From contig NZ_JAPVQY010000011.1 of the NCBI RefSeq assembly GCF_027257875.1, forward strand, positions 1 through 64,000: a DNA stretch of 64,000 nucleotides, read 5' to 3'. The number at the start of each line of letters is the position of its first letter. Position 1 is the stretch's first letter. The position numbers were made by a program, and so were the translations under genes. The notes below the pieces were generated by a model. That model did not search any database, was not told the origin of the DNA, and saw only the letters and a list, made by a program, of their open reading frames with translations. Source of the stretch: Burkholderia sp. IMCC1007 (GTDB lineage Bacteria; Pseudomonadota; Gammaproteobacteria; Burkholderiales; Burkholderiaceae). Shown here piece by piece: positions 44,166 to 64,000 of the stretch.

Positions 44166-44228
44166 CCGAATCCGTCACGCCCGCTGGGCGCGCCCCACGT
44201 CAGCTCGTGATTGCCATTGCGCGCCGCT

Positions 44229-44243
44229 GTTACCCGGGGTAAC
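44229..44243. repeat. GTTACC palindrome copy 2
   Basis: GTTACCCGGGGTAAC is a perfect 15-bp inverted repeat in the gap before the PFL_4669-type gene, 34 bases before copy 3. Confidence 0.7.
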
Positions 44244-44276
44244 GGCAACCCGGCCTGTCGCCCGCCAATTACGCGC

Positions 44277-44295
44277 GTGTTACCCAAGGTAACAC
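44277..44295. repeat. GTTACC palindrome copy 3
   Basis: GTGTTACC-CAA-GGTAACAC is an inverted repeat with 8-bp arms, 52 bases before the next start codon. With copy 2 it could be a paired operator or part of an origin. Confidence 0.7.
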
Positions 44296-44346
44296 GACGA
44301 GCACGCCGTTAGTTGTCACTGAAAGTCTATCTTTGAGGAGCCTGAC

Positions 44347-45408: not shown

Positions 45409-45424
45409 TGCGAGGACTGCGGCA

Positions 45425-45913
45425 ATGACTGACCGACCTTCGGATCTGGATCGACGTTCAAAGGCCTTTAAGGGTAAGGGAGCCGGCAGCCTTGCGCCAG
45501 CAATGGCGCTACCTGTATCACGGATCGCGGGCGATGCCGGGATACGCGTGCTACTGCGTTCGTACGAGCACTGGCTCGAGGAGACTATGACCGAAATGCA
45601 GACGCTGGCGCTGGAGAGCGCGACCACCGGGCTCGACGTGTCGCTGCGCTGCGTACGGATCGCACTGGCGAGCGGCGCGACACGCCATCGTCTCGACTGG
45701 TTCATCCGCGGTGAGCCACATGCGGTTGCCTGGCCGTACGTTAAGGGCTGTTTCAATCGCATTCCCGCGCCGCTACGGACGTATCTGCAGCAGTGCCAGA
45801 TTCGTGCCAAGGAGCTCAATGCACTCGAGTCGGTATTCCGGTATGCGGCGAGTCAGCTCGCGATGTACCTGGAGCACGGCACGGTGAAAATTCGGCGCAG
45901 CGATGAGACGTAA
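45425..45913 (+). CDS. DUF3158 family protein
   Basis: The 162-residue protein carries LRSYEHWLEETMTEMQTLALESATTGLDVSLRCVRIALASGATRHRLDWFIRGEPHAVAWPYVKG, which fits DUF3158, a family always found beside ssb in ICE modules. It starts 16 bases after the PFL_4669-type gene. The function is unestablished. Confidence 0.83.
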   Translation: MTDRPSDLDRRSKAFKGKGAGSLAPAMALPVSRIAGDAGIRVLLRSYEHWLEETMTEMQTLALESATTGLDVSLRCVRIALASGATRHRLDWFIRGEPHAVAWPYVKGCFNRIPAPLRTYLQQCQIRAKELNALESVFRYAASQLAMYLEHGTVKIRRSDET

Positions 45914-46042
45914 GACCGGTGCGGAGTTTCGTCCGCGTCTGATTGGCGGACACCGAGCTGACGCAGGGCACCCGAATAAAAGAAGCAGGAGTGGACAGCG
46001 CGTGCGATAGACAGGGGCAATCCTTGATGAACGGAGTCGGGA

Positions 46043-46621
46043 ATGGGAATCTATGCAGAACTCGTCGGTAACGTGCTGGCATCGCCGACGATGAAACAGG
46101 TCAACACCGCCAGCGGCACGCGCCGCATTGTCGAACTGCGCGTGATGTCCGCCAGTTACCGACGGCTCGAGGACGGCACGCTGGAGCAGCGCGACGGACG
46201 GACGTTCCCAGTCGACGTGACTATCTGGAACGAACTCCTCACCGAGCGCGTGCTTCAGCATATCAGGACCGGGGCGAGTGTCGTCGTCCGCGGCGACTTC
46301 TACGTCAGCCCCTGGATCAATCGCGACAACGAGGCGGACGCTGGCGCGCATATCGACGCGGAGTCCATCTCGCTGAACCTCGTGCGCATCGAACAGGTGG
46401 TTTATCGGCCGCGCCAGCCGCGCGAAGGCGAAGTTTCCGGCGGCTCATCACAGAGCGAGGGCGGGGGCGAGCAGGAGGGTTCGGCCAATGACGTATCGAA
46501 TCCGTCTGAGTCGACCTCGGAAGGGGAGTCGCCTGCTGAGGATCCAGAGGGTGACACGGCATCCCCGGGGCAAGCCGCGAGCCGGCGTTCGCGCCGGGCG
46601 GCGCGGGCGCAAGGCCAATGA
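46043..46621 (+). CDS. ssb: single-stranded DNA-binding protein of the element
   Basis: The 192-residue protein has an N-terminal OB-fold (YAELVGNVLASPTMKQVNT...FPVDVTIWNELLTERVLQHIRTGASVVVRGDFYVSPW) and a long Glu/Ser/Gly-rich tail. The OB part differs from chromosomal SSB in the way typical for ICE SSBs, and the usual DDDIPF tip is replaced by an Arg-rich end. It would protect transferred single strands. The downstream gene overlaps its stop. Confidence 0.87.
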   Translation: MGIYAELVGNVLASPTMKQVNTASGTRRIVELRVMSASYRRLEDGTLEQRDGRTFPVDVTIWNELLTERVLQHIRTGASVVVRGDFYVSPWINRDNEADAGAHIDAESISLNLVRIEQVVYRPRQPREGEVSGGSSQSEGGGEQEGSANDVSNPSESTSEGESPAEDPEGDTASPGQAASRRSRRAARAQGQ

Positions 46622-50270: not shown

Positions 50271-51527
50271 CTACCGGTTCACCGCACGCAGCAATGGCGT
50301 ACCGGACAGGCGGGCGATGGCGGCGATACCCTGGCGCTGGATGTGTACGAGCGCGAGGTCGGAATCGAACCAGCTGTTCGCCAGGCTGATGAGCACGTCG
50401 GGCGATTGCAGCAACACGCGCCAGTGCGGCCACCACAACAGGTCCTCATAGCAGATCGAGAAGGCCACGCGTTTGCCGGCGACGATGACGTTTGACTGCA
50501 TCATGCCGCCACGGATCGCACTGACGGCCGCACCGGGACGCCATAGCGCCACGGGCACCGGCTGGCGACTGTCGATGCGCCCGCGGCTGGCGCCAACGAT
50601 GATCGCACTGTCGGTGTATCGGAACGGCGTGCCGGACACGGTCAGGTCCATGCCGATGATCAGTGTTCGCTTCGCTGAGACCAATGCCTGGATGTCGTCA
50701 CGCCACCAGTAGTCCATCGCCGGGCGCCACAGCCCCACGATTTCCTCTGGCATGACGACGACGGTGGCGCCCGCGGTGAACGCGTGTTGTGTGATGGCCT
50801 GGACCTGTTGCGTTCGGGCGTAGAGCAACGCGTAGCTGGACTGATCGAACCGGCTCAAGCGTGTGTCGAGTGCGACCCAACTGGACGATACTTCCGGCGC
50901 GCTCGCCACACTGCGCGCGACGGCGGACAGTATCAGGAGCAGCGTCGCGGCATGTCGGACGGGAGGTCCGTGTGAGACGGAGGCCGCGCACGCGATGGCG
51001 GTCACACCGAGCATCAGGCCCGGCGCCTTCCAGCCAGGAAACAGGGTGCTGGCGACGTATGCCGGCGATAGCCAGCCGATGATGCCGAGTGGTGGTACGG
51101 TCACGAGCACGGTCGCGACAGCGGCGCACAAGGCGTAGCGTGCGGCGCCCGCGTTCGGCCCCGGCTTGAGCACGGCCCACGGTGTCGCCAGCACGCACGC
51201 CTGCGCGATCCAAAACAGGAAGCCGAGTACGAGCCCCTCCGGTCGCGTCAGCTCCCCATAGCCGGAAAAGAAGCGCATGCTGACGACGGGAATATCCCGT
51301 GCGCCAGCGAGGTAATAGCCCATCCAGATTGCGAGTGCCGAGGTACGTTCCCGCACGCGGGACCATATGGCTGGCAGGAGCAGCAGGAGCACCTGCCAGT
51401 GCCCTGGGTACCATGCGGACAACGCCACGAGTGCGCCGGTGGAGATGAACGTCGCACATGCAAGGCTGCGTGGGAGAGACTGGAAAGTTGCCCGTGTCGA
51501 CGGAAGAAGTGGAGGCAGCGAAAACAT
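50271..51527 (-). CDS. traB: TraB-like conjugal transfer protein: membrane part plus nitrilase domain
   Basis: The 418-residue protein has five or more N-terminal membrane helices with GARDIPVVSMRFFSGYGE, as in TraB of Agrobacterium Ti and related plasmids. The C-terminal carbon-nitrogen hydrolase domain carries the Glu of VVMPEE and the nucleophile Cys of SICYEDLLWW. TraB stimulates conjugation and resembles apolipoprotein N-acyltransferase. It is the first gene of the minus-strand group 51.5-47.9 kb. The exact substrate of the hydrolase domain is unproved. Confidence 0.85.
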   Translation of the reverse strand: MFSLPPLLPSTRATFQSLPRSLACATFISTGALVALSAWYPGHWQVLLLLLPAIWSRVRERTSALAIWMGYYLAGARDIPVVSMRFFSGYGELTRPEGLVLGFLFWIAQACVLATPWAVLKPGPNAGAARYALCAAVATVLVTVPPLGIIGWLSPAYVASTLFPGWKAPGLMLGVTAIACAASVSHGPPVRHAATLLLILSAVARSVASAPEVSSSWVALDTRLSRFDQSSYALLYARTQQVQAITQHAFTAGATVVVMPEEIVGLWRPAMDYWWRDDIQALVSAKRTLIIGMDLTVSGTPFRYTDSAIIVGASRGRIDSRQPVPVALWRPGAAVSAIRGGMMQSNVIVAGKRVAFSICYEDLLWWPHWRVLLQSPDVLISLANSWFDSDLALVHIQRQGIAAIARLSGTPLLRAVNR

Positions 51528-51672
51528 GGGTCCACAGGGAGGCAGAAGTCAGCGGCACGGTCGATGCCGTGCCGGGCTTTCCCCAGTGATGCGCGCGCTG
51601 CATTGTCGAGCATAGGACAGGTTTTGCGTTCGCGCTACGTTGAAGAATAGCGTCGAGAGAAAAGTCACCGAC

Positions 51673-51707
51673 AAAAAAAGCGCCCGGTCCCGGAAGGGAT
51701 CAGGCGC
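51673..51707 (-). terminator. strong rho-independent terminator of the 61-51.7 kb operon
   Basis: On the minus strand GCGCCTGATCCC-TTCC-GGGACCGGGCGC forms a long stem, immediately followed by seven T. It lies 37 bases beyond the DUF3085 stop and ends the long operon. Confidence 0.85.
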
Positions 51708-51743
51708 ATCGCTTTGAATGGGAGCGAAAAGGGAAGGAGACCT

Positions 51744-52094
51744 TCAGGAGCGCGGGGCGACAGCGTTGATGTAGAGGTAACCGGCGTCGGCTTCGATTTG
51801 GAGATCGAAGCCTTCGGCGATCACGCGGTCGAAGACCGCATCGCTGCGATCGAGATACTCGACGAAATCATCGCCGGCGAATTCCGCCTGGGCGCGTTCC
51901 CACCAGTCGGCGAATGGCACCGTATCGGGATTGCATTCGACAGCCCACGCGATGATCCTGCGACGGCCGTTTTCTATTTCGCCTTTCTCCGAGAGCATGT
52001 AGACGCCGTGATCCTTGACCAACACGATTCGACATTGCTGTGTGCGGGCTTCGGAGATGACGGGACGCAGATCAGCGGTCAGGAAGTGGATCAT
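51744..52094 (-). CDS. DUF3085 family protein
   Basis: The 116-residue protein contains CRIVLVKDHGVYMLSEKGE, AWAVECNPDTVPFADWWERAQ and GGDDF-like AGDDFVEYLD, the hallmarks I associate with DUF3085, found in ICE cargo clusters. GGAGG precedes ATG 52094. It is the last gene of the operon, 45 bases after the helicase. The function is unknown. Confidence 0.78.
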   Translation of the reverse strand: MIHFLTADLRPVISEARTQQCRIVLVKDHGVYMLSEKGEIENGRRRIIAWAVECNPDTVPFADWWERAQAEFAGDDFVEYLDRSDAVFDRVIAEGFDLQIEADAGYLYINAVAPRS

Positions 52095-52139
52095 GATGAA
52101 TTCCTCCATGAGGGATGGGGTGGGAGATGAGGTTCCCGG

Positions 52140-54437
52140 TTATTCCTGACTCAACAGTTGCCGCGCGAGCGCAACTTCGATGCTCTCTCCGCCCTGATTG
52201 AGGATGTCGAGACCGGAATCGGGCATGTCGCCGGAGGTGGACTGCGAGACGGCGATCTTCTGTCCCATCAGCTTCAGACACCGCATCTGCGCGGTCCCCT
52301 CGTACCCGAGAAAACGCACTGTGACGTCGAGCGTCTGACCAATACGCCAGCTGCGGCGTGCGGCCTGTTGCAACGTATAGACGTTGTAGCCCGACTGAAG
52401 AAAAGCAATCGTCGGGAATTCGAGCAGATCGAGCCCGGTCTTGACCAGTTCCGGGTTTGTGATGATGACCTCGGCGCCGCGTTCGAGCTGGTCCGCGACC
52501 CAGTCCTCGCGCTTTTCAGCAGGGACACTCGCACGGAGCACGGATGCCCTGACGCCTACTGCATCGAAGAGGTTCTTCAGCCGCACCGACGTATCGCGCG
52601 TACCGGTATAGGTCGTGTAGACCAGCGTGCGCCGGCGATTCAGCAGTTCGCCGCGCACGAGTCGCAGCAACGCTTCCTCCTTGGGACCCGGCTGGTCGTC
52701 GCGCAGCAATGCAGGCACGCTGGCGAGGATGCGCTTGGTACGCGGATGACGTACGAGCTCGGGCCTAAAACAGCATTCCGGCCATGCAAGTAATGCATTG
52801 AGCACCACACCTAGCAGGCTCTTGTCGCCGCAGCGTAATGCGGCGCGCAGTTCCGATGTCAGCGTCGACTCGAGCGCACGATAGGCGGCCGCCATGTCGT
52901 CGGTCATTGCGACCGGGAGCAACGATTCGTCGTAGGGCGGCAAGACATTCTGGCCGAGCTGCGAGAGCTTCAGAAAGGCCGTGTACGGCACGACGTACCG
53001 CATGATGCCCTTGGGGCCGAAGCCCGGGCCCTTCACCGTCGAGACGCTCTTGCGATCGCCCTTCGCGGTGCGGTGTGAACCTTCATCGACCTGCTTGTGA
53101 ATATCGATGAGCACGCCATGCTCGCGCATGAACGCCATCGTTGCGGCCGCCATCGAGCCGTTGTTGTTGTAGTTGAACCCGTCTTCGATCAGCATGGACG
53201 GATTCAGGCGATAGAGCAGGTGATACAAATCGTCGGCGTAGCCGCCCATCAGCGTGCCGGTGAGCAGCAGCGTTTTCGAGGCCTTGCGGGCCAGTACGCC
53301 CATGGCCTGTCCCTGGGCTGAATTTTCGTTCTTGTATTCGTGGCCTTCGTCGGCAATCAGCAAACCGAAGTAGCCTTGAGGAAGGTATCGCTTGATGAAC
53401 TCCGAGGCCTGATAGCCACCCTGTCCGAACGAGATTTCGGTGTGGGCGAGCGCACGCTCCATGCGCTTGGCCTGCCGGTCCGAGAATACAAGCTCGCCGG
53501 TGTCATCCATCAGATTGATGAACTCATACAGATTATCCTGCAGCATGTCGGCGAGCATCGATTCGCCAAAGCGGGAGAGCAGCCGCTCGGCGGTCTTCTC
53601 GCCAACGGTCGGCATCTGTAGCAGCGCGCCCTTCACCAGTTCGCGCATCGTTCGTGTGCCCTGGCCTTTGGGCGCAAGGGTCCACAGCCGCTCACCACAA
53701 CTGCACGCCCGACGCTTTTCGTTGAGTGCGGACCGCGCCAGGGTGGGCGTCAGTGGATTGCCGTCTTCATCGCAGACGAACTCGCCGCACGAGGGGCAAC
53801 AGGCAAAGACGCGTGTGACTGCGTCGGTCTCCATGTCGAGCGTAGCGACGCGGCGCGCGAACGCGGGCTTCCAGTCGAAGCCCATACGCATACGCACGCG
53901 ACCGAGAATGAAAAATTCCGGCACCGCTGGCTTCGAATGCATGACTCGTAGCTGAAGCAGCTTGCGCAACGTATCCGGGCCGTTGAGAATCCAGACGCGT
54001 GCACCCGGGACCGTCGTTTTGATTTCGCGTCGCCATTTGTAGACGAGATGCGGTGGGGCGATGACGAGCGTGCGTGGATAACCGGTGTGATGCAGCAGGA
54101 CCGCGACGCCAATACCCATCAGCGTTTTTCCGGTGCCCATTTCTGCATTGATGACACCGCCTGGCGCGTGCTGCGTGAGCAGCGTCGTGATCGCGTGGAT
54201 GACCTCGCGTTGCGCCGGAAACGGCTGGCGCGAAAGTGCACCCAGTAGCGCGTCCCAGCGTTGTGGACGCTGGCCGTCATAGATCGACGGATTCTGCTGG
54301 CGGACAGCCTCCAGCAGTCCGGCACCGAAGTTGGCAATGAAGTCCGGTAGGGAAATTACGTTACGAGCTTGATCGCCGCTTACCAGATCGTCGTCGGTGG
54401 TGCTGCTATCGACGACAGCGGATTGCAGATCTTCCAT
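52140..54437 (-). CDS. SNF2-like DEAD/DEAH superfamily 2 helicase with a zinc finger
   Basis: The 765-residue ATPase has INAEMGTGKTLMG (motif I, near residue 105), LVIAPPHLVYKWRREI (Ia), LLIADEGHEYKN (motif II, DEGH), LLLTGTLMGG (III), LVYTTYTGT and the late QQAARRSWRIGQ (motif VI). A two-part zinc finger (CCPSCGEF and CSCGERLW) is inserted between Ia and II. This is the SNF2/RapA-type translocase architecture. The ATG with GGAG upstream was chosen over one 27 bases earlier. It shares the operon with an NPPY methyltransferase, so it could belong to an element-borne defence or anti-defence module. Confidence 0.9.
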   Translation of the reverse strand: MEDLQSAVVDSSTTDDDLVSGDQARNVISLPDFIANFGAGLLEAVRQQNPSIYDGQRPQRWDALLGALSRQPFPAQREVIHAITTLLTQHAPGGVINAEMGTGKTLMGIGVAVLLHHTGYPRTLVIAPPHLVYKWRREIKTTVPGARVWILNGPDTLRKLLQLRVMHSKPAVPEFFILGRVRMRMGFDWKPAFARRVATLDMETDAVTRVFACCPSCGEFVCDEDGNPLTPTLARSALNEKRRACSCGERLWTLAPKGQGTRTMRELVKGALLQMPTVGEKTAERLLSRFGESMLADMLQDNLYEFINLMDDTGELVFSDRQAKRMERALAHTEISFGQGGYQASEFIKRYLPQGYFGLLIADEGHEYKNENSAQGQAMGVLARKASKTLLLTGTLMGGYADDLYHLLYRLNPSMLIEDGFNYNNNGSMAAATMAFMREHGVLIDIHKQVDEGSHRTAKGDRKSVSTVKGPGFGPKGIMRYVVPYTAFLKLSQLGQNVLPPYDESLLPVAMTDDMAAAYRALESTLTSELRAALRCGDKSLLGVVLNALLAWPECCFRPELVRHPRTKRILASVPALLRDDQPGPKEEALLRLVRGELLNRRRTLVYTTYTGTRDTSVRLKNLFDAVGVRASVLRASVPAEKREDWVADQLERGAEVIITNPELVKTGLDLLEFPTIAFLQSGYNVYTLQQAARRSWRIGQTLDVTVRFLGYEGTAQMRCLKLMGQKIAVSQSTSGDMPDSGLDILNQGGESIEVALARQLLSQE

Positions 54438-54471
54438 GATGCGTCTCCATAAGACGCGGGTCACACGTTCC

Positions 54472-54498
54472 CCTGGCAGGACGTATGAGTCCCGCAGG
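54472..54498 (-). ncRNA. leader hairpin before the helicase gene
   Basis: On the minus strand CCT-GCGGGAC-TCATAC-GTCCTGC-C-AGG folds into a 7-bp inner stem (one GU) with an outer 3-bp stem, 35 bases before the start codon. It is one of a series with the wording CCY-GCGGG...CCYGC-RGG. Confidence 0.55.
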
Positions 54499-54558
54499 TT
54501 GGGGTAAGAGTCGAGGACCGCGGATGCGGCGAGTGCTGCCAGGATGCGCTAGTGCGCT

Positions 54559-55170
54559 TCAGTCGAGCGAGAGCGTGCCGCTGCTGACGAATTCCGAGAT
54601 CGCCTTTGCGAATGCGTCGGGGAGCGTGACTCGCGAAGCATGGATGCGTCCGACAGGCGCATAAGGCGCATCGCCGAGATGGGCGACGAGCTGACTGCCA
54701 AGTGCATCGAGCACCGGTGTACGCCAATGCGGTAGCAGCGGTATTGGACTGAGCTGTTCGATGAGTGACCAGACGCGGGCCTGCAGGGACTCGTCATCGT
54801 GCACCTGCGTTTCGCGATCGACCAATAGCCATGCCGACCCGGCGGCTTTAGATGGGGTAAGGAGCGACTCGTCGTAAATCCACGTATGGACGAGGTTGCC
54901 GAACAGGTTGTCTTTCGGCAGGCGACCGCTGTACTTGTCCAGCCGCCGAGGGTCACCGACGGGAACGGCCGCAACCGGCTGGTTGTCATCGGGATCGAGC
55001 AGCGTGAGCTGCCGGATGCCGCCTTCCTGAATGCCCAGGTGTAGCGAGGCATACAGCTGCTGAACGGCGCCATCCCGTCCGAAGACGGAGATGAAGACGA
55101 GCTCGCCATCGGGTGCACGTACGCAGGCGTCGACGAAGATGTCCTGCAATTCTTTGATGGGATACAGCAT
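54559..55170 (-). CDS. hypothetical ICE operon protein
   Basis: The 203-residue soluble protein begins LYPIKELQDIFVDACVRAPDGELVFISVFGRDGAVQQLYASLHLG. It contains TLLDPDDNQPVAAVPVGDPRRLDKYSGRLPKDNLFGNLVHTWIYDE and WLLVDRETQVHDDESL. The start at the ATG with GGAG upstream excludes 53 extra residues that span the leader hairpin. It sits between the 150-residue protein and the helicase. I know no function. Confidence 0.75.
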   Translation of the reverse strand: MLYPIKELQDIFVDACVRAPDGELVFISVFGRDGAVQQLYASLHLGIQEGGIRQLTLLDPDDNQPVAAVPVGDPRRLDKYSGRLPKDNLFGNLVHTWIYDESLLTPSKAAGSAWLLVDRETQVHDDESLQARVWSLIEQLSPIPLLPHWRTPVLDALGSQLVAHLGDAPYAPVGRIHASRVTLPDAFAKAISEFVSSGTLSLD

Positions 55171-55197
55171 GTGGGTGCTCCAGTGTGAATGTCCGGC

Positions 55198-55216
55198 GCA
55201 CCCACCGGGTGGGTGC
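55198..55216 (-). ncRNA. leader hairpin before the 203-residue protein gene
   Basis: GCACCCA and TGGGTGC form a perfect 7-bp stem with loop CCCGG (minus strand), 28 bases before the start codon, with the common CAACCCGC lead-in just before. Confidence 0.5.
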
Positions 55217-55460
55217 CCGGGCGGGTTGGGGACAATTCCGAAGCTTCGCGAACGAAGCTGCAGCTGCGCAGACGAAGGCGCCGGAAGAAAGCTGCGGGTG
55301 GTGCAAAGGTGCCGCGTGACGGACGACAACGAATCTGCGGCCGGCAGATCAGCGGAAATGAGGGCTGCGAACTACGCTTTCCCCGAACGCCGTATGCGAC
55401 GATCCGGGAAAGCGCCCCATTCGAGGGGCGCAAAAGGATGTCCGGCAATGAACTCGCCAG

Positions 55461-55913
55461 TCAACAGCCATCCAGCGTGCCGAGCAGCGCGCGAAGATCA
55501 CGCGCCTGCCGGGCGGTGACCGTCATCGGCACCAGGGCATCGGGATGCCACGCTTCGATTGCTGCTGCGAGCGGCAACCGTCTGTCGGCAAGCCGTACGA
55601 ACGCGAGCAGCCGATGCGCAGCGACATGGAGTTTGACTGCGCGTACCGAGACATCGGCGGTCGGCCATGCTGCGACTGGCGTGGCATCAAAGTTGAGGAC
55701 CTGCCCGTCAATCTCTTCGTAATCGTCGTAGAGCTGCGGCATGTCCGGCGTGTCATCCCACAATGTCCCGGCGTCGAATGCCGCGCGAGCGATGGCGCAA
55801 GCTGCGTCGCCGCTGGCGGCGCGAATGCCGATGACGACGCGGTGGGTATGGTCAAAGCTGTAGCCGACCATGAAGGTAGGCAGTGCCTGCCCGGTGAGGC
55901 TCATCTCATTCAT
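55461..55913 (-). CDS. hypothetical ICE operon protein
   Basis: The 150-residue protein contains MVGYSFDHTHRVVIGIRAASGDAACAIARAAFDAGTLWDDTPDMPQLYDDYEEIDGQVL and ends in QARDLRALLGTLDGC. It is acidic and probably soluble. It follows the methyltransferase gene in the same direction. Between it and the next gene lies a 290-base stretch holding only a leader hairpin. No family is recognised. Confidence 0.7.
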   Translation of the reverse strand: MNEMSLTGQALPTFMVGYSFDHTHRVVIGIRAASGDAACAIARAAFDAGTLWDDTPDMPQLYDDYEEIDGQVLNFDATPVAAWPTADVSVRAVKLHVAAHRLLAFVRLADRRLPLAAAIEAWHPDALVPMTVTARQARDLRALLGTLDGC

Positions 55914-55938
55914 GACATAGGTGTCCTGGAGGTGCGGT

Positions 55939-55972
55939 AACCCGTCCCTGCGGGGCGTGGCCCCGCGGGGTT
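55939..55972 (-). ncRNA. leader hairpin before the 150-residue protein gene
   Basis: On the minus strand GCGGGGC-CAC-GCCCCGC, with outer CCC/GGG pairs, makes a very stable stem 26 bases before the start. It matches the other leaders. Confidence 0.6.
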
Positions 55973-55989
55973 GATGAAGGTGATCCGGG

Positions 55990-57096
55990 CTAGCGGATCG
56001 TGACGATCCGGCCGAGGTTCGGGCCGGGAGTGAAGTCGATGCCCGCGATCGTCGGAACGAACCGGTCCCGCATCAGGATCGTGGTCCGGATCTCGCCCTT
56101 GTCGGTTTCCTCGATCTGGACTTCCTGCTCCTTCTGCTTGATGGTGTCGCCGCGGATCAGCAGGCGCGTACCGTCGGCACCGGTCACGACGCCCGTGATC
56201 TGCCCGGCTGCGAGCGCGAGCGCAAGATGCCAGTCGGAAAGATCACGTAGTGGACGCCGCGGCGTGACAGCCTTCGTCGCGAACATCGTGGCGAACTGTG
56301 GCCACAGCGTGGCGTGTTGCAAGCGTTTCAGCTCGTGTTCGAGCTGCGGCGCATCGATCCGTGTCGACATGAAGGCGTATTCGCCGACCAGCGAAGGGAT
56401 GCGGTACGGCTCAGCGGTCCAGCTCACCGGCAGTTCGGGCGGCATTTCGCTTTCATGGATGCGCGCCAGGCGCGCGGCCAGTGCGGTGTCGACTCCATCT
56501 GCCCGGCGTTTGACGCCAAAAAGCACGAGTTGTTTGAACGTTTGGTCGGGCGCGAGGAACACCTCAACCTTTGTGAAGTTTCGGGCAATCATGGTGGCGA
56601 ACTCTCGGTCCATCACGTAGTGCGGCACGATCAGGACCAGCACGCCGCCGAATGCGAGCCACGGGACCGTCTTGAGGTAGAAGATCTTCTCGAGACGATC
56701 CGGCTGACGCTCGCCGGTCTGTGCCTTGTCCGATACAACATCGCCATACGGTGGATTGAGGAACAGCAGTCCCATGCTGCGGGCCGTGATGAACATGTCG
56801 TGGACGTCGGTGTGTGCCACGGTGTCAAGTACTTCCTTCGCGTGCCATGCACGCTCGCGGTCGTATTCGACGCCAAACGCACGGGCCGCATCGGGCATCG
56901 GGGAGTGCGCAACAAGCGCAGCCCTAAGTTCCTGCAGCGCGGCACCTTCGCCGCAACAGGGATCGAGCAGCCGCACGGGGCGATCGGGATCGGCCAGCGC
57001 GAGCGCCGGCATGATGCGCGCGAGCGTGGCGGCGTCGGTCGGAAAGTACCCGTTCTTCACAAAATTTCTGGCGAGGCGGGGAAAGATCAGGGCCAT
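55990..57096 (-). CDS. NPPY-type DNA methyltransferase (DUF6094-like)
   Basis: The 368-residue SAM-dependent methyltransferase has LLDPCCGEGAAL at 43-54 (motif I), GVEYDRERA at 75-83 and FLNPPYGDV at 112-120 (motif IV, typical of N6-adenine methylation). The later half lacks an obvious restriction endonuclease, so it is an orphan or protective enzyme. The ATG with AAAGGAG upstream fixes the start. Co-transcription with an SNF2 helicase and ArdB-like antirestriction hints at protection of the element from host defence. Confidence 0.88.
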   Translation of the reverse strand: MALIFPRLARNFVKNGYFPTDAATLARIMPALALADPDRPVRLLDPCCGEGAALQELRAALVAHSPMPDAARAFGVEYDRERAWHAKEVLDTVAHTDVHDMFITARSMGLLFLNPPYGDVVSDKAQTGERQPDRLEKIFYLKTVPWLAFGGVLVLIVPHYVMDREFATMIARNFTKVEVFLAPDQTFKQLVLFGVKRRADGVDTALAARLARIHESEMPPELPVSWTAEPYRIPSLVGEYAFMSTRIDAPQLEHELKRLQHATLWPQFATMFATKAVTPRRPLRDLSDWHLALALAAGQITGVVTGADGTRLLIRGDTIKQKEQEVQIEETDKGEIRTTILMRDRFVPTIAGIDFTPGPNLGRIVTIR

Positions 57097-57117
57097 ACGA
57101 CTCTCCTTTGGGGCACG

Positions 57118-57149
57118 GGTATGCCGCGGCTGTGAGGCCTGGCACACCG
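57118..57149 (-). ncRNA. divergent leader hairpin before the methyltransferase gene
   Basis: On the minus strand GGTGTGCC...GGCATACC pair over 8 bp (one GU), with an inner GGC/GCC stem, 21 bases before the start codon. It is less similar to the others. Confidence 0.4.
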
Positions 57150-57163
57150 TCGATGGATGGGAA

Positions 57164-57724
57164 TCAGGCCTTCAGCCACGTCTGGCTGGAGGCCTGGAAG
57201 GCGTAGCCAAATGCGCGAAGCTGGTCGCGCTGCTGGCGGAACACGCCGCGGTCGACGGTTGGATCGAGCTTTACCGGCTCGCCGGCGACGATCGCATCGG
57301 CCAGTTCGGTGCCGAACAGATCGGGCAGATACAGCTCGCCGGAATCGGCGCCGGTTTGCGCGGACGCCGGATTTTCGTCGGCACGCGCGGCGGCTGAGGT
57401 ACCCGGCGTACGCTCCTCGTCGACGGGGTCCGGCTCCGTCGAGGCGGGCTCGCGCCCGGTTTCGCTGAACGGTTCGTCGTTGTCGAGCTGTACGTCGGCG
57501 AGCCTCGCGCGGATTTCGACGGTAACCTTGCCGTACCACACGTAGCTGTGCGGATAGATCTTGTCGATCAGAAAAGTGCCGGTGTACGCGCCGGGCTCGA
57601 ACTGTTCGAGCACCTTGTCCTTGACCTTGAACTCGCCAACGGACGTCGAGAGTTCACCGACCCGGAACGGGCCATTGCTGCCCTTGATGGTGCGCACGTC
57701 AAGCGTGCCAGAAAGCGAAATCAT
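57164..57724 (-). CDS. DUF3275 family protein
   Basis: The 186-residue protein has SLSGTLDVRTIKGSNGPFRVGELSTSVGEFKVKDKVLEQFEPGAYTGTFLIDKIYPHSYV at its start. An acidic, Pro/Thr-rich linker follows, and a C-terminal LDPTVDRGVFRQQRDQLRAFGYAFQASSQTWLKA. This two-end layout is typical of DUF3275, found in ICE cargo operons. GGAGG precedes the ATG. It may bind nucleic acid, which is not proved. Confidence 0.83.
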   Translation of the reverse strand: MISLSGTLDVRTIKGSNGPFRVGELSTSVGEFKVKDKVLEQFEPGAYTGTFLIDKIYPHSYVWYGKVTVEIRARLADVQLDNDEPFSETGREPASTEPDPVDEERTPGTSAAARADENPASAQTGADSGELYLPDLFGTELADAIVAGEPVKLDPTVDRGVFRQQRDQLRAFGYAFQASSQTWLKA

Positions 57725-57753
57725 GATGCCTCCACGCAGTGAGGCGGGACCCT

Positions 57754-57779
57754 CCCTGGCGGGCATGGTGTCCCGCGGG
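57754..57779 (-). ncRNA. leader hairpin before the DUF3275 gene
   Basis: On the minus strand CCC-GCGGG-...-CCCGC-CA-GGG forms paired inner and outer stems 30 bases before the start codon. Confidence 0.55.
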
Positions 57780-58003
57780 TTGGGAAAGATCGTGCGGATA
57801 GACTGTCGCTGCGCGGTCAGGACAGGGCACAGCCGACACGCCGAACGCAACATTGCAGGTCTTGCTGGCAGGTTTTGTTGATAGGGCGATGCGCGACCGA
57901 TACGGCGAGGCAACAGCCATCGCTCAATCCTGGAAGCTCATGAACGGAGGCTTCCGGCATGTCGGCCAGGGAGCGCGATGCGTCACCCGACGGCATGGAT
58001 GCA

Positions 58004-58540
58004 TCAGCCCGCGCGTTGCGGACCGCACTCGTCGGCGGTGCGCTGCTCGACGATATGACGGAAGAGGCGAGGGGGAAACCTGAACAGCCGGCCGCCGCTT
58101 TCGACGATCCACGTGCGATGGTGTCGACTCACGACCACCGCCTCATTGATCGACAGACCGCTGAGCGTCAGCACATCGCCTGGCGCGAGCGAGCGTGAGC
58201 GGGCCGCATGCCAGGCGCGAACCTGCTCGCGCCATGCGGGCGCCGCGGGCGGCACCATGTCGAGATAGGCGAGCGGGCAGGAGTAATACAGCGGTTCCAT
58301 CTGCTCGCACATATCCTTGTATCCCCAGCCTGCACAGGTTTTGTCCCATGCGAGCAGATCGCAGCCGATGAAACGCATCGGCGCAACGCCCGCGCGACCG
58401 ATTTCCCAGACGGTCCAGAGTACGTTGCCACTCGTGCAGTGACGAAGGCAGCGACGTGTGAAGCTGTCATGCTCCTCGTCGCGTGTCAGGCGAGCGATGA
58501 GTTGCGCGCGCGTCTGTCCATGACCAAACAGCCATCCCAT
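58004..58540 (-). CDS. hypothetical ICE operon protein (DUF6927-like)
   Basis: The 178-residue protein begins GWLFGHGQTRAQLIARLTRDEE. It contains GNVLWTVWEIGR, FIGCDLLAWDKTCAGWGYKDMCEQMEPLYYSCPLAYLDMVP and a final RLFRFPPRLFRHIVEQR. The GWLF start with repeated Cys and aromatic residues resembles proteins annotated as DUF6927. GAGG precedes the ATG. It could bind a metal (several Cys), but its function is unknown. Confidence 0.75.
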   Translation of the reverse strand: MGWLFGHGQTRAQLIARLTRDEEHDSFTRRCLRHCTSGNVLWTVWEIGRAGVAPMRFIGCDLLAWDKTCAGWGYKDMCEQMEPLYYSCPLAYLDMVPPAAPAWREQVRAWHAARSRSLAPGDVLTLSGLSINEAVVVSRHHRTWIVESGGRLFRFPPRLFRHIVEQRTADECGPQRAG

Positions 58541-58571
58541 GATGTACCTCGCAAGGTGAGACGAGGCATCG

Positions 58572-58602
58572 TTCCCGTGGCGGGGCGATGCCCCGCGGGG
58601 AA
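58572..58602 (-). ncRNA. leader hairpin before the DUF6927-like gene
   Basis: On the minus strand TTCCC-C-GCGGGGC-ATC-GCCCCGC-CAC-GGGAA forms two stacked stems (7 and 5 bp), 32 bases before the start codon. Confidence 0.6.
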
Positions 58603-58662
58603 GCACCGTTGATACGGTGCAAGTGATGGAAGGAAGTGAAACCGGCGATCGTGATGCCGGGG

Positions 58663-59250
58663 TTACATGCGCCGCTGCGCGCGAAGATCGCGACCCATGG
58701 CGGTACGAACGGAGCTGATGATGAACACGGTCCAGTCGGCGAAGTACCGGCCATCGAAGACGATGGCCCCCGAGTCGAGCATGAGCTGGATCGGCATCGT
58801 GATCTTCCCGGCAGGAACCTCGCCATCCGGTCCGATGACGACGCCCATGTCCGGGAAGAAATGCCGCCCCTCGTACGGATCGAGGAATTCCAGCTCGAGG
58901 TCGCGGGCCTCGACGATGTGGCAGTAACGCAGCCGGCCGATCAGCGGTCCGTCAAACCCGGTGACGAGCGGAGATCCAAGTGGATCGTCGCGCCCGTTGA
59001 AGAGTCCGAGATAGAGTCCGTCTGGAAGACCGACGCTCTGGCTCATAAAGCGCGGCAACGTGCGCCCGTCACGGCACTGAAAAACCTGCTGCGACGGACC
59101 GTCTTCATCGACGGGCCAGTTCGCGGCGCGCGGGAGCGCCTCTGAAATTCGCGCATGGTGTTCCGTTTGCACGCCCGGCCAGCAACGCATTTCGATGTCG
59201 CTGGGCTTTCTGACGGGTGGCCGGGCGACGAGGCAGTTACAGCTTGACAT
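58663..59250 (-). CDS. hypothetical ICE operon protein
   Basis: The 195-residue protein starts SSCNCLVARPPVRKPSDIEMRCWPG. It continues with SVGLPDGLYLGLFNGRDDPLG, GFDGPLIGRLRYCHIVEARDLELEFLDPY and GEVPAGKITMPIQLMLDSGAIVFDGRYFADWTVFI, probably a beta-rich fold. AAGGAG is in the right place. It lies between the ArdB-like and DUF6927-like genes. No function is known. Confidence 0.72.
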   Translation of the reverse strand: MSSCNCLVARPPVRKPSDIEMRCWPGVQTEHHARISEALPRAANWPVDEDGPSQQVFQCRDGRTLPRFMSQSVGLPDGLYLGLFNGRDDPLGSPLVTGFDGPLIGRLRYCHIVEARDLELEFLDPYEGRHFFPDMGVVIGPDGEVPAGKITMPIQLMLDSGAIVFDGRYFADWTVFIISSVRTAMGRDLRAQRRM

Positions 59251-59278
59251 GATTTTCTCCTTGAGCAACGCGGAGACG

Positions 59279-59307
59279 CACCCGTGCGGGGTGCGTTCCG
59301 CAGGGTG
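59279..59307 (-). ncRNA. leader hairpin before the 195-residue protein gene
   Basis: On the minus strand CACCC-TGCGG-AACGCACC-CCGCA-C-GGGTG gives ten base pairs with one bulge, 29 bases before the start codon. Confidence 0.6.
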
Positions 59308-59325
59308 TAAGAGATAGGCAGGACG

Positions 59326-59745
59326 TCAGTCGATCGCCGCGAAGATCTCGCGAGCTTCCGGGTGAGACGGCACAAAGGCGAGCAGCTCGTGATACAGGTC
59401 CGCGAAGCGTGCTTCTTCCGTCGACCACGCCATGGCGTTCAACGCGAACAGCGTGGCAACAATGCCTGCCGCATCGCTGCTCATCTCGCCGTCATATCCG
59501 TTGCCGTCGCAGGTGATGGGCAGCGGATCACTGAGGCGGGGTGCCATATAGAAGGCGCCATTGGACAGCTCGACGTAATCCCAGAATCCACCGTGGTACG
59601 TTGCGCACAGTGACGACATGGCCGTATAGACCGCCACTTCGGCGCGGATCATGTGTTTGCCGAAATAGCGCGGCAAGATTTCTATGCGGCGCTCATCCGG
59701 CACGATGGTAGCCTTGATCGCGCGTGTTTCGCCGGCTTCAGTCAT
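59326..59745 (-). CDS. antirestriction protein, ArdB/KlcA family
   Basis: The 139-residue protein contains RRIEILPRYFGKHMIRAEVAVYTAMSSLCATYHGGFWDYVELSNGAFYMAPRL and a later AAGIVATLFALNAMAW. The YFG...Y.GGFWD...LSNG.FYM.P signature is that of ArdB/KlcA, which protect incoming DNA from type I restriction. GGAG lies before ATG 59745. In this operon it supports a role in establishment of the element after transfer. Confidence 0.87.
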   Translation of the reverse strand: MTEAGETRAIKATIVPDERRIEILPRYFGKHMIRAEVAVYTAMSSLCATYHGGFWDYVELSNGAFYMAPRLSDPLPITCDGNGYDGEMSSDAAGIVATLFALNAMAWSTEEARFADLYHELLAFVPSHPEAREIFAAID

Positions 59746-59782
59746 GACGTTCTCCGAAAAGGTGCGGCGAACGGCTACCCGG

Positions 59783-59802
59783 GCGGGGAAGCGCATCCCC
59801 GC
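59783..59802 (-). ncRNA. leader hairpin before the ArdB-like gene
   Basis: On the minus strand GCGGGGA-TGCGCT-TCCCCGC is a perfect 7-bp stem 38 bases before the start codon. Confidence 0.6.
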
Positions 59803-60206
59803 GAGGATTGGACAAAGTGAGGCCCGAAGGCGTGATAAGAGGTGATTCCGGAGCCCGCGTCATGTGACGCGGGAACAGCCGTGCAGACGGTGGCACCGGA
59901 AGTGGGCTGTAAAGGTGTCGCCTCGCGTGGCGACGAACGAGCCTGCAAGCTGGCAGGCCAGCAGTGAAACCGTCATGCGTCATGGGCCTTCATCGGCGGC
60001 ACCTGTCTATGAGAAGGGAATGACGTATGACGCCTGGCAACCGCATCTGCCAGGCGTGTGTCTGGGCCGGAGCAATCGGTCCGGCACAAACGGCGCGGCA
60101 TGGTGGGGCCACCGCGAACCCGGTGTGGATCGGGGCCAGCGCCAGCTTTCCTGAGCGTTTCGTTATTCGTCGCTCGGGAAAACAGGCGGACCGGTCATGC
60201 GAGAAG
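59803..60206. other. 400-base gap inside the operon without a supported gene
   Basis: Frames exist on both strands but have no family likeness or ribosome site. The stretch is GC-rich with several small inverted repeats (for example CGGAGCAATCGGTCCG). An internal promoter for the ArdB-like gene and those after it may lie here. Confidence 0.4.
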
Positions 60207-60229
60207 TCCCCCGCGCGAGGCGGGGGACG
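60207..60229 (-). terminator. hairpin after the STY4534-like gene
   Basis: GTCCCCCGC and GCGGGGGAC form a perfect 9-bp stem with a 5-base loop, starting 11 bases past the stop codon. There is no T-run, so it may be an attenuator or RNA-end protector. Confidence 0.5.
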
Positions 60230-60240
60230 AGGGATTGCCT

Positions 60241-60912
60241 TCACTCGGAGGTGTCGGCGGCACGGCGGGTGTTGGCGTTACTGTGACGGCGCAGTGGCGG
60301 ATAGCGATTGGTACGCGAGGCAGTGCGTTCAGTCAAAGCCGAGGCTTTACGAGGTTCCTGTGCGTTGCTACTGCTGCCGGTTTCATCGATGTCATCCGTA
60401 TCGTGCTGATCACGACCGTCTCTCGACGGCAGTTGTCCATTGACACGCTCCGGCGCCTCATCATTTCCGGCGTCCGCGTCATCGCGTTCTTCGCTTTCAT
60501 CTCGATAGACCTCCTGGCCGTCGACCTTGATCCAGAAGAGCTTCAGCAGGCGCCCCTTGAGCACGGCGCCGGTTTCGCCAGCGCGGTTGCCGGTGCGCTC
60601 GAACGTCCGGATGTAGTGATCACCCGCGCGGAACGAAACGAGGACTTTCACATCGGGATCGTTCGCGTCGTCCATCACGGAGCGGACCGCTTCCCTGGCC
60701 TTTTCGCCGGCGACGATCAGGTCGAGCGGGAGATAGACGATGCCGTTCTCGACATTCGGATCGCCATGGAACGCGGAAATGGCGCATGCGAGGAAGGGTT
60801 TCGCCTTGCTGCGGCCATTGCCCCTGGCGGTCACATCGCGCACGCGCGACAGATACCCGAGGCCACGCAGATGAAGATCGAAATACTTGCGGGGTTCGAC
60901 TGACTGATTCAT
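60241..60912 (-). CDS. STY4534-family ICE replication protein (DUF3577)
   Basis: The 223-residue protein starts KYFDLHLRGLGYLSRVRDV, followed by KAKPFLACAISAFHGD, EKAREAVRSVMDDANDPDVKVLVSFRAGDHYIRTFERTGNRAGETGAVLKGRLLKLFWIKVDGQEVY. This is the DUF3577/STY4534 pattern of an OB-like ssDNA-binding fold. The acidic, Arg-tipped tail is variable. GGAG lies before ATG 60912. It heads the 61-51.7 kb operon and carries the first leader hairpin. Confidence 0.87.
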   Translation of the reverse strand: MNQSVEPRKYFDLHLRGLGYLSRVRDVTARGNGRSKAKPFLACAISAFHGDPNVENGIVYLPLDLIVAGEKAREAVRSVMDDANDPDVKVLVSFRAGDHYIRTFERTGNRAGETGAVLKGRLLKLFWIKVDGQEVYRDESEERDDADAGNDEAPERVNGQLPSRDGRDQHDTDDIDETGSSSNAQEPRKASALTERTASRTNRYPPLRRHSNANTRRAADTSE

Positions 60913-60950
60913 GACGATTCTCCAGAACGAAAAAAGGGGAATCGCCAAGG

Positions 60951-60983
60951 CCCGTGTCGGGGAATGACAATTCCCCAGACGGG
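60951..60983 (-). ncRNA. leader hairpin before the STY4534/DUF3577 gene
   Basis: On the minus strand CCCGT-CT-GGGGAAT-TGTC-ATTCCCC-GAC-ACGGG folds as two stacked stems (7 and 5 bp) closed by a tetraloop, 39 bases before the start codon. Computationally described candidate RNAs named after DUF3577 and DUF3085, as I recall them, should be compared with it. The rest of the 60913-61316 gap shows only AT-rich promoter-like sequence. Confidence 0.6.
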
Positions 60984-61316
60984 CAAGAAGGGAGCTTCCG
61001 GTCAAACGACCTGCGGTGGTCCAGACAGTGGGACGAAGCACAACCGCAAAAAGGTGTCGCAAAGCGACGGTGCTGCAAAGGATGCTGAATGGGCTCCAGC
61101 GGGCAACTTCAATCGCGAATCATAGCCGGCGAGATCAAAAAATCAAGGTGATAACCGCGCCACATTTTTTTCGTGCGAGACCGGTATAACGGGATTAATG
61201 TTGAGGTCACGACGCATCACGCTATCTCACGGTCTGCACGTTGCCGTTACACTCGAACCACGGTCACCACGATTAGCACGACGACTGCGTGAACGGCCCC
61301 GAAAAAATGTGTGCCG

Positions 61317-61541
61317 TCACGCGAGCTCGTCAAATTCGAGCATTGAAGCGGGTGAAACCCCGAGCGTGGCGGCCAGTACGCAGATGTTGTAAAGGGCGAT
61401 ATTGCGCTGACCCCGCTCGATGCCGCCGATGTACGACCGGGCGAGGCCACTTTCGAGCGCCAGGCGTTCCTGCGACCAGCCGCGCGCCTTGCGAAGCGCA
61501 ATCAGGCGTTTTCCAAACAGGGCAAGCGGGTCGTACTGCAT
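61317..61541 (-). CDS. XRE-family helix-turn-helix regulator
   Basis: The 74-residue Cro/CI-type protein reads YDPLALFGKRLIALRKARGWSQERLALESGLARSYIGGIERGQRNIALYNICVLAATLGVSPASML. This covers the complete five-helix HTH with almost nothing else. An upstream TTG would add 29 unlike residues. It stands just above the STY4534 operon in the same direction and may control it. Confidence 0.87.
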   Translation of the reverse strand: MQYDPLALFGKRLIALRKARGWSQERLALESGLARSYIGGIERGQRNIALYNICVLAATLGVSPASMLEFDELA

Positions 61542-61735
61542 CAATATCTCGAGCGGAGGGATATCGAAGCGTACGGATTTGACCTGTTTGAGGCCACGCT
61601 CTATGATAGGACGCACTATGAGTGACAATTATTGCGTCAGTCACAATGGTGCTGTGAAAGCGACGTGGACACCGGTCAGGATCGGGATAGCCGGTGGACC
61701 AACCCGATAGACCTTCTTGCCCAACGGGGAGCACG

Positions 61736-62204: not shown

Positions 62205-63095
62205 TTACGCTGAACTGCAGCGAGAAAATTCCTGACGGAATGCGTCAAAGAGCTGGGAGATTCGCTCGGCTGATTCGCCACCGGGAATCCGCATGCGGCT
62301 TGCCGTCATGTGAGTCAGTATCAGCGGTGATGGTTCGTCTAGGGCGAGAACTGCAAGAATCTGGTCACCCACGTCCGGCGTGGTGATACCTGCCATGTCC
62401 CGGCCGAGGAGGGCGGCGCCGCTGATGTCGGGATCGTGGTCGTGTCGTTCGATCAGATCGAAATTGTCGTCGGCATACAATCGTTCGAGATTCCCCGCCT
62501 CGCCGTACCAAGCCAGCAGAAACAGCAGATCGATCGCATCCTTGCGATCGATCGCGTGACGATCCTGCCAGGCGATTAACTTGAGCATCGCCTGGGAGGG
62601 TAATGAGGCGACGGGGACCACGAGATCGGCGTCAATGCGAACGGGAACAGCCGCACGCAGTGCCTGTTCGAAGCCGGCGACATTCATTCGGACAGCCTGA
62701 TCGGGCGGCCAGGCAATTTCGCCGCCTTCGTCGGCGATGCGCCCGAACGGAACGATGTCGAGCCAAGTGCGAGCGCCGGTATCGGGTGCCCGGTAGTGCA
62801 AGCGGTGGGCCGCGTTACCTCGTTGCTCGAAGTGTCCGGACGCGACCAGCGTCAGCCTCAATGCTTCGTGTCCAGCCCAGCTCTCGATGGAAATGCCGAT
62901 ATCGATGTCCGCGGTCGCGCGCGTCGGTTCAATGTCATGGACGTGTGTGAGCAGGATGTCGCGAGCGCTTGCCCCACCGACGAACCACAGGATGCCCTCG
63001 GCAGAGGCTGCCGCTGTCACTTCACGGAGGAGGGCAACCATTTCCGGTGGAAACGGGCGATGGGGGCACGGATCAAGAGGACAGATATTGTTCAC
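62205..63095 (-). CDS. nucleotidyltransferase, AbiEii/AbiGii-like toxin
   Basis: The protein of about 296 residues has a nucleotidyltransferase core: LWFVGGASARDILL, then RATADIDIGISIESW with the Asp pair, and later LIAWQDRHAIDRKDAIDLLFLL. These are the motifs of AbiEii-type toxins and related DUF1814 proteins. The GTG at 63095 overlaps the antitoxin-like gene by 23 bases. An ATG at 63041 is also possible. The pair would form a type IV system causing abortive infection or stabilising the element. Confidence 0.8.
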   Translation of the reverse strand: MNNICPLDPCPHRPFPPEMVALLREVTAAASAEGILWFVGGASARDILLTHVHDIEPTRATADIDIGISIESWAGHEALRLTLVASGHFEQRGNAAHRLHYRAPDTGARTWLDIVPFGRIADEGGEIAWPPDQAVRMNVAGFEQALRAAVPVRIDADLVVPVASLPSQAMLKLIAWQDRHAIDRKDAIDLLFLLAWYGEAGNLERLYADDNFDLIERHDHDPDISGAALLGRDMAGITTPDVGDQILAVLALDEPSPLILTHMTASRMRIPGGESAERISQLFDAFRQEFSRCSSA

Positions 63096-64000
63096 GCAGC
63101 AGGCGGGCCGTTTCGAGGTTGCGAGAGTCGCCACTCGCAACGAGATCTGCGTAGGCGAGCAATGGCGGGACGATGTTCTGGGGAAGCTCGGGTGCAGCCG
63201 CGAACTCGATCGGCGATTTCAGGAATTCGACATTTCCATCGCGATCAGGGCGCAGTCGCGCCTTTGCGATCCACTCTCGCGGCACCTGATCGGCGCAGTA
63301 TACGGTGAATGTGGCTGGTTTCAGGTATTCCGTGAGGATCGCCGCTGCAGGCTCACCGCCAAACCGACAACGGTCGGGAAGCTCGGGAACGTTTCGCCAC
63401 CAGTCGGGCACGTCCGTGCGGAAGCGTCCGAGCTGAAGCGTTCCACGCAAGAGCGTGGGGTACAGCGTCGTCCATTCGTCGATCATCCGACTTGCGTCCG
63501 TGAACTGCATACCGCGCCCGCTGGGACGTTCAACGAGATCCCGGCGGCCAAGCATTCCGTGAATCGCGTTCTGAACGGTTCCGTGACTGACGCCGGCGAC
63601 CTGAGCGATGTCGCGATAGGTGTTTTCCAGCAGCGACGGAACGGCGAGCAGGGCGAGGGCCACGCGCAGCGTCGACTTGGTCCAGGTCCGGCTCTGCGTC
63701 TGTTGGCTTTGATCCGGACGCGGGCGTCCAGACACAAGAATGACGTTATCGGCCAGAAGGATGCTGGCGTTGCCGGCGAGGTCAAGGGCATCGACCTGCA
63801 GTTCGCGGCACGCGTTGATCATATTGGGGGACAGATACGACGTCACGAGTAGTAGCCTTTCGGCCTTGCTGGGGGCAGCCTGTGCGCGGATGGCGGCAAG
63901 GGTGCCATAGCGGTCGATGGTCTGCTTGACGAGCGCGGGACGTTTGAAGCGACGTGTGCCAACGTGAAACTCCAGCACGGCATCCGCCCCGGACCTGGGT
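63073..64000 (-). CDS. AbiEi-like antitoxin/regulator (5' end beyond the window)
   Basis: At least 301 residues are present. A winged-helix region (LLAVPSLLENTYRDIAQVAGVSHGTVQNAIHGMLGRRDLVER) sits in the middle, and a C-terminal domain (TEYLKPATFTVYCADQVPREWIAKARLRPDRDGNVEFL) resembles AbiEi-type antitoxins. The frame stays open to the window edge (reading ADAVLEFHVGTRRF), so the true start lies outside. Its stop overlaps the toxin gene, the usual order for AbiE. Confidence 0.78.
   Translation of the reverse strand, partial: PRSGADAVLEFHVGTRRFKRPALVKQTIDRYGTLAAIRAQAAPSKAERLLLVTSYLSPNMINACRELQVDALDLAGNASILLADNVILVSGRPRPDQSQQTQSRTWTKSTLRVALALLAVPSLLENTYRDIAQVAGVSHGTVQNAIHGMLGRRDLVERPSGRGMQFTDASRMIDEWTTLYPTLLRGTLQLGRFRTDVPDWWRNVPELPDRCRFGGEPAAAILTEYLKPATFTVYCADQVPREWIAKARLRPDRDGNVEFLKSPIEFAAAPELPQNIVPPLLAYADLVASGDSRNLETARLLREQYLSS

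Follow-up and report, generated by a model that had tools for sequence, protein, structure and literature searches.

What does a GC-rich hairpin do in front of nearly every gene of an operon? The question is raised by a 64,000-nucleotide stretch of the genome of Burkholderia sp. IMCC1007 (positions 1 to 64,000 of contig NZ_JAPVQY010000011.1, here called the window), in which ten genes, named by Pfam profile search, form an operon on the minus strand at 51.7 to 61.0 kb. The original prediction for this stretch placed a GC-rich stem-loop before nine of the ten genes, and we find this to hold, DUF3085 (start at 52094) being the gene that has none. Comparison with related sequences points further, namely, that each typical leader is probably a small self-contained RNA switch for its own gene, off by default through masking of the Shine-Dalgarno (SD) sequence.

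Four-segment leaders and the masked SD

A typical leader consists of four segments, in which R1 and R2 form a first hairpin (H1), and R3 and R4 form a second stem (H2) that buries the SD. R1, comprising the 5' arm and loop of H1, is also complementary to R3, the SD-masking strand, and the resulting R1:R3 helix competes with both stems. As far as sequence comparison reaches, each of the three pairings (R1:R2, R3:R4, and R1:R3) is conserved from leader to leader, the last sharing strands with the other two. The second stem and the alternative pairing go beyond the original prediction, which had ascribed a common wording to eight of the leaders; eight do match one covariance model, and the ninth hairpin, before the DUF6094 gene, is of a different type (GGTGTGCC..GGCATACC) and is not a model match. 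The nine hairpins are as follows.

60910..60987, minus strand: leader of the DUF3577/STY4534-like gene (model match, 24.2 bits; leader fold z of -5.03), with R1 at 60966-60976, R2 at 60959-60965, R3 at 60936-60946, T6 at 60930-60935, and the SD arm R4 at 60913-60923; R1:R3 spans 11 bp at -18.1 kcal/mol
59743..59811, minus strand: leader of the antirestriction gene, H1 at 59778-59806 (model match, 39.5 bits)
59248..59309, minus strand: leader of gene 3, H1 at 59269-59302 (model match, 22.3 bits; poor fit to the architecture)
58538..58604, minus strand: leader of the DUF6927-like gene, H1 at 58572-58602 (model match, 13.7 bits, E value of 0.028; R1:R3 at -17.1 kcal/mol)
57722..57783, minus strand: leader of the DUF3275 gene, H1 at 57754-57779 (model match, 21.5 bits; R1:R3 at -18.3 kcal/mol)
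57118..57148, minus strand: hairpin of the other type before the DUF6094 gene, outside the model matches
55916..55974, minus strand: leader of gene 7, H1 at 55946-55970 (model match, 23.9 bits; R1:R3 at -11.9 kcal/mol)
55168..55229, minus strand: leader of gene 8, H1 at 55201-55225 (model match, 19.0 bits), whose second stem is formed by R3 GGGTGCGCC and SD arm GGAGCACCC
54435..54502, minus strand: leader of the helicase gene, H1 at 54472-54498 (model match, 18.0 bits; R1:R3 at -16.1 kcal/mol, reaching into the H1 loop)

Within the gene 3 leader, a TCTCCG can pair either with an upstream GCGGA or with the SD. Measured from the 3' end of the hairpin to the start codon, the spacing is 18 to 46 nucleotides (nt) for the stems taken here, wider than the 21 to 39 bases initially claimed; it narrows to 18 to 37 nt when the hairpin of the DUF3577 leader is taken to include its outer stem. 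The stem of the DUF6094 leader (GGTGTGCC/GGCATACC) still pairs in relatives despite changes, as judged by eye.

For comparison, we used the best 80 of 212 candidate loci in which a helicase relative is present. Among 302 ortholog leaders of the ten genes, folding of the SD-proximal last 40 nt exceeds that of mononucleotide shuffles (mean z of -1.49), compared with a mean z of -0.32 in 273 control genes outside the operon (18 near-duplicate loci were excluded from this comparison). The SD lies within a conserved stem, more weakly so in held-out leaders, and changes in the sequence can leave that stem intact, as in the antirestriction leader, where GTTCGCCG/CGGAGAAC becomes ATCCTCCG/CGGAGGAT in relatives. 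An attempt to call leaders at every window gene from a combined energy score was given up, since the score failed to discriminate in this GC-rich sequence, and an N-padded seed alignment was abandoned.

Leader-specific pairing of R1 with R3

Because MAFFT alignments are poor around R3, the main tests of the alternative pairing are alignment-free permutations. Energy alone was used to parse each leader into H1 and H2, with R1:R3 left out of the parsing, and the duplex energy of each leader's own R1:R3 was compared with that of the same R1 and the R3 of other leaders. An energy filter passed 314 of 400 ortholog leaders, of which 100 are compact and 68 of these nonredundant (the window and its relatives, at <75% identity). 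For 263 of the 314, R1:R3 within the leader is stronger than the average over 40 others. In the set of 68, R1:R3 is clearly leader-specific, with the true partners at -15.2 kcal/mol and GC-matched permuted partners at -10.6 (z of -13.5; 0/2000). The two stems gave z values of -15.3 (R1:R2) and -16.5 (R3:R4), both favored by the construction of the parse, and the remaining combinations, R2:R3, R1:R4, and R2:R4, showed no leader specificity in the same permutation (|z| of ≤1.5). Permuting within loci (294 leaders from 65 loci) gave a z of -12.2 for R1:R3, as against 2.6 for R1:R4, 1.2 for R2:R3, and -0.5 for R2:R4.

The same preference is seen in smaller sets. Leaders held out from other genomes (25 of 35 model matches, hand-picked) gave a z of -3.7 for R1:R3 (4/10000), and among seven window leaders (gene 3 and DUF6094 excluded), just 4 of 5,040 assignments of R3 to R1 are as good as the true one, the true one included. 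Moreover, the H2 loop contains the 3' tail of R3, a stretch that SD pairing does not require, and this tail matches the R1 5' flank (z of 4.9; 0/5000; 113 rows retained of the 124 parsed from 150), examples being GCGGGG with CTCCGC and CACGGGGA with TCTCCGTG.

Counts of covariation came from an alignment of 150 matches (A3), which was fitted to the H1+H2 structure (OFF). In that structure, 14 of 18 pairs have changes on both sides, amounting to 426 such cells versus 219 in shuffles (0/500); this abundance of compensatory changes across relatives upholds the proposal that selection acts on RNA structure. The R1:R3 helix (ON) has both-side changes in 11 of 12 pairs (234 cells versus 167 in shuffles), and its doubly changed cells, paired share, and covariation score all exceed those of shuffles (0/500). 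The score drops from 0.291 to 0.190 when the partners are slid, and antidiagonals 56 to 58 of the ON helix stand out in an OFF-fitted alignment (z values of 3.7, 2.3, and 4.2). G-U pairs are frequent in both OFF and ON, which argues for an RNA rather than a DNA palindrome.

Calculated energies favor OFF over ON in 66 of 68 full-length leaders, by a median of 8.3 kcal/mol, and in nascent RNA ending before the SD, the pairings 1:2 and 1:3 come close to balance (median of -2.2, with 1:3 the better of the two in 47 of 68). Stability of OFF at full length together with balance in the nascent RNA suits a switch that rests off and is opened by an added influence. Under such a mechanism, pairing of R1 with R2 would leave R3 free for the SD arm R4, blocking initiation, so that full-length RNA in its presumed resting state, H1+H2, would not be translated. 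Were R1 to capture R3 instead, H1 and H2 would each lose a strand, and the SD could be released. The opening cue might be a protein or an RNA acting at H1, or else a 30S subunit already on the SD, in which case R1 would keep R3 away. The likely purpose would be to prevent read-through transcription from leading to expression of an integrated mobile element, with each of its genes silenced individually.

If true, this would show how integrated elements keep antirestriction genes, replication genes, and genes of unknown function silent yet ready, and it would provide a sequence-defined handle on when such genes switch on. A strand that matches the SD as well as an SD-like segment upstream of it by complementarity would also be a natural counterpart of engineered strand-displacement switches.

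Several results weigh against an SD-controlling switch. When R1:R3 is forced, the calculated median probability that the SD is unpaired rises only from 0.24 to 0.42, and in the two window leaders of that set the SD is not freed at all (DUF3577, 0.25 to 0.21; DUF6927, 0.0 to 0.0). The best fold of the window helicase leader combines R1:R3 with a short SD hairpin, so that exclusivity is weak there, and gene 3 leaders fit the architecture poorly, with 3 of 10 well formed. R3:R4 is weak in the held-out leaders (z of -1.9; 345/10000), and R1:R3 is weaker in the Paraburkholderia/Trinickia group, i.e., the window and its nine closest loci (n = 27; z of -2.5; 20/3000). A conserved pairing that competes with the SD stem was found, with mixed results in the alignment counts: the numbers of ON pairs changed on both sides (191/500) and of pair types (116/500) do not exceed those of shuffles, and ON partners slid by +2 columns pair in 60.9% of cells versus 61.0% when left in place. 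Finally, in 64 of the 79 leaders with a run of at least 5 T, the run starts no more than 2 nt from the end of R1:R3, a position that suits a terminator.

Termination and other explanations

This last observation leads to a rival explanation that we regard as possible but unlikely, in which the leader is a transcription attenuator: R1:R3 and a U-run would form an intrinsic terminator just before the SD, R1:R2 would be the antiterminator, and pairing of the SD would be secondary. In its favor, the R1:R3 helix is followed by about 8 T-rich, G-poor nt (T fraction of 0.41 to 0.64), with at least 5 T in the next 7 nt in 27 of 68 leaders, compared with 5.7% of control 7-mers, and T-runs start within 2 nt of the end of the H2 arm in 41 of 79 cases, fewer than for R1:R3. 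Such runs are commonest in the DUF3577 and helicase leaders (58% of 38 and 40% of 48, respectively), and the balance of 1:2 and 1:3 in nascent RNA and the T6 of the first window leader (DUF3577) also conform to attenuation. However, a run of at least 5 T is present in only 79 of 272 leaders (directly after R1:R3 in 64), the DUF3577 leader is the only one in the window with such a run after R3, and pairing of R3 with R4 outside the SD core is left unexplained. R1:R3 is, furthermore, specific in 129 leaders without a T-run of more than 2 in the H2 loop (z of -9.7; subset drawn from 205 nonredundant leaders of the 314). Termination, therefore, cannot be the sole reason for the pairing, which favors control of the SD, with termination added in some leaders; in the subset in which a U-run directly follows R1:R3, the helix could double as an intrinsic terminator.

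A joint reading of the two processes, somewhat more doubtful than attenuation by itself, makes the leader a fail-safe AND gate. Neither fold would give expression with ordinary RNA polymerase, as R1:R3 would expose the SD but terminate at the U-run before the SD is transcribed, and R1:R2 would be read through with R3 locking the SD; only a polymerase modified by a processive antiterminator that the element encodes, passing with R1:R3 formed, would yield an open SD. If true, the array of leaders would all but abolish read-through expression from a resident element.

The remaining explanations account for less of the leader. It is improbable, though less so than the readings that follow, that the hairpins are binding sites for one RNA-binding regulator, or RNA thermometers, with R1:R3 having no function of its own. 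The unpaired A-rich stretch before H1, which may be a binding site, agrees with a regulator, position 4 being A in 95% of 124 genomic rows outside the seed; this evidence is partly circular because the seed pattern required A there. The loops of H1 vary, and the specific match of R1 with R3 beyond H1 and H2 would have no explanation. We give very little credence to a feature at the level of DNA, such as operator palindromes or single-stranded-DNA promoters of the leading-region type, even though H1 is a palindrome and antirestriction genes are typical early genes of conjugative elements. Matches to the model lie on the gene strand (with 9 exceptions among 295 listed) and end at the start of an open reading frame (ORF) in 141 of 149 cases, G-U pairs are many, and the SD is held in the second stem. 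A plain sigma-70 consensus scan of 51400-61400 yielded 1 site, at 61146-61119 and outside the hairpins, a scan of this type being limited to promoters other than single-stranded (Frpo) ones. Equally remote are hairpins that serve RNase processing or stabilize the mRNA between cistrons: the long intercistronic gaps (median of 116 nt from upstream stop to leader) would suit them, but they predict neither pairing of the SD nor R1:R3. With this median, it is unlikely that the genes are as a rule coupled translationally to the preceding one, although the distance is 40 nt or less in 55 of 148 cases. Among the three functions originally offered, then, a translation switch fits best, because the SD sits in the second stem and R1 can take its 5' arm; binding sites for a regulator and RNase processing points fit less well.

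Distribution, known RNAs, and the surrounding genes

Covariance models show how far the leader extends. A first model was built from 30 seed leaders, none from the window (7 with one to three unverified leading letters), and run on 41 of 81 sources, where it gave 395 matches at E values of ≤1; counts of strands and copies refer to the 300 matches listed. This model already recovered 5 window leaders (E values of 1.2e-9 to 0.0054). Among the 295 matches listed outside the window, 9 are on the opposite strand, as counted by eye, and 5 of these 9 span the H1 part only. The 149 aligned nonwindow matches include 141 that end at the start of an ORF of at least 50 amino acids, noting that the model itself includes the start codon; this placement directly before genes, mostly on their strand, again accords with selection on the RNA. 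Copies per locus, as counted by eye among the matches listed, range from 2 (L073) to 12 (L026), with an average of about 7 over 40 loci, and together with the 8 leaders here would represent a competing-fold cis-regulatory RNA used gene by gene. When the model was rebuilt from A3, whose training included one window leader (59743-59811) and orthologous leaders of close relatives, its 8 best matches in the 64 kb were the window leaders, all on the operon strand (E values of 2.6e-11 to 0.028), and the ninth (E value of 0.032) was on the other strand.

The whole 8.57-Mb genome contains 8 matches at E values of ≤1, 6 of them in this operon, and 13 of 200 sampled genomes of the phylum, its own included, have a match at E values of ≤1e-4. 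DUF3577 was found in 3 of the 200, each with the leader; 10 sampled genomes have a leader match without DUF3577, some of which may represent other elements or chance. A single contig of 319,548 bases (L093-L096) carries 14 scattered leader matches, the genes that follow them including DUF3150, PRTRC E, and a Toprim primase, and since that genome has no DUF3577 match, the leader can occur independently of the DUF3577 operon. On the evidence of these sequence matches, the leader occurs in related operons of beta- and gammaproteobacteria.

Searches of Rfam 15 gave no matches at the gathering score in the 64-kb window, radC RNA (RF01754) included, and none at E values of ≤5 in 51400-61400; in 12 related loci, the only matches were radC RNA (L077) and a tRNA (L001), with the leaders unmatched. 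The suggested tie to candidate RNAs named after DUF3577 and DUF3085 is not supported by these searches, Rfam 15 having given no such match (that it includes these models is unconfirmed). The leader, matching no Rfam entry, would conceptually belong with the attenuators. In four-segment translational attenuators, such as the ermC leader, alternative pairings set masking of the SD. Here, too, alternative pairings would decide whether the SD is masked, but the opening pair is 1:3, whereas that of ermC is 2:3, and the arrangement is repeated before most genes of the operon. The preference of nascent and full-length RNA for different folds resembles the metastable nascent-RNA control of the maturation gene of phage MS2 and of hok mRNA, which differ in organization.

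The radC RNA is likewise a cis-regulatory RNA of Proteobacteria and has 4 copies in an operon of the same kind (L077), but it is 149 nt long, has another structure, and is unmatched in the window. In that Collimonas operon, the four radC RNAs lie at 70-206, 2120-2266, 3607-3754, and 6603-6741, and three of them overlap or just precede switch leaders (2235-2304, 3762-3839, and 6792-6863), placing two classes of leader RNA in series. Conjugation operons are described as having internal terminators with processive antitermination (PMC8955417), as is canT of Tn916 (PMC11658703). Such systems resemble the leaders in their likely role of insulating mobile-element operons from spurious transcription; they differ in acting at transcription, whereas here the SD is masked and most leaders have no long U-run. 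Searches of the open literature, PMC2864571 and PMC2892462 among it, brought up no paper recognized as describing such leaders; with the scope being the open literature, an earlier description is possible.

The genes of the operon and its end, where the predicted T-tailed terminator is indeed present, are as follows.

60241..60912, minus strand: DUF3577/STY4534-like gene (PF12101, 6.8e-35; NF040584 match below its cutoff)
59326..59745, minus strand: antirestriction protein gene (PF03230, 1.7e-29)
58663..59250, minus strand: gene 3, without a Pfam family
58004..58540, minus strand: DUF6927-like gene (PF21992, just under the cutoff)
57164..57724, minus strand: DUF3275 gene (PF11679, 7.7e-42)
55990..57096, minus strand: DUF6094 methyltransferase-like gene (PF19587, 1.7e-24)
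55461..55913, minus strand: gene 7, without a Pfam family
54559..55170, minus strand: gene 8, without a Pfam family
52140..54437, minus strand: SNF2-type helicase gene (PF00176, 2.5e-12)
51744..52094, minus strand: DUF3085 gene, without a leader hairpin (PF11284, 1.3e-23)
51671..51710, minus strand: intrinsic terminator at the operon end (-20.8 kcal/mol, z of -4.28; stem followed by T7)

Neighbors of the operon include genes for ParA (38825), AcaB (44347), and SSB (46043), which are core genes of integrative conjugative elements. The plus-strand ParA, ParB-like, AcaB, and SSB genes (38825-46621) have no switch leader matches at E values of ≤10 in the covariance model search of the 64 kb. Further hairpins precede the switch leaders in the long intergenic gaps at 59746-60240 and 57725-58003, where the presence of a divergent radC RNA was considered and rejected, Rfam giving only unrelated matches far below gathering scores. 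Upstream of the operon are a small helix-turn-helix gene (61317-61628) and an AbiEi/AbiEii-type toxin-antitoxin pair (62205-63978).

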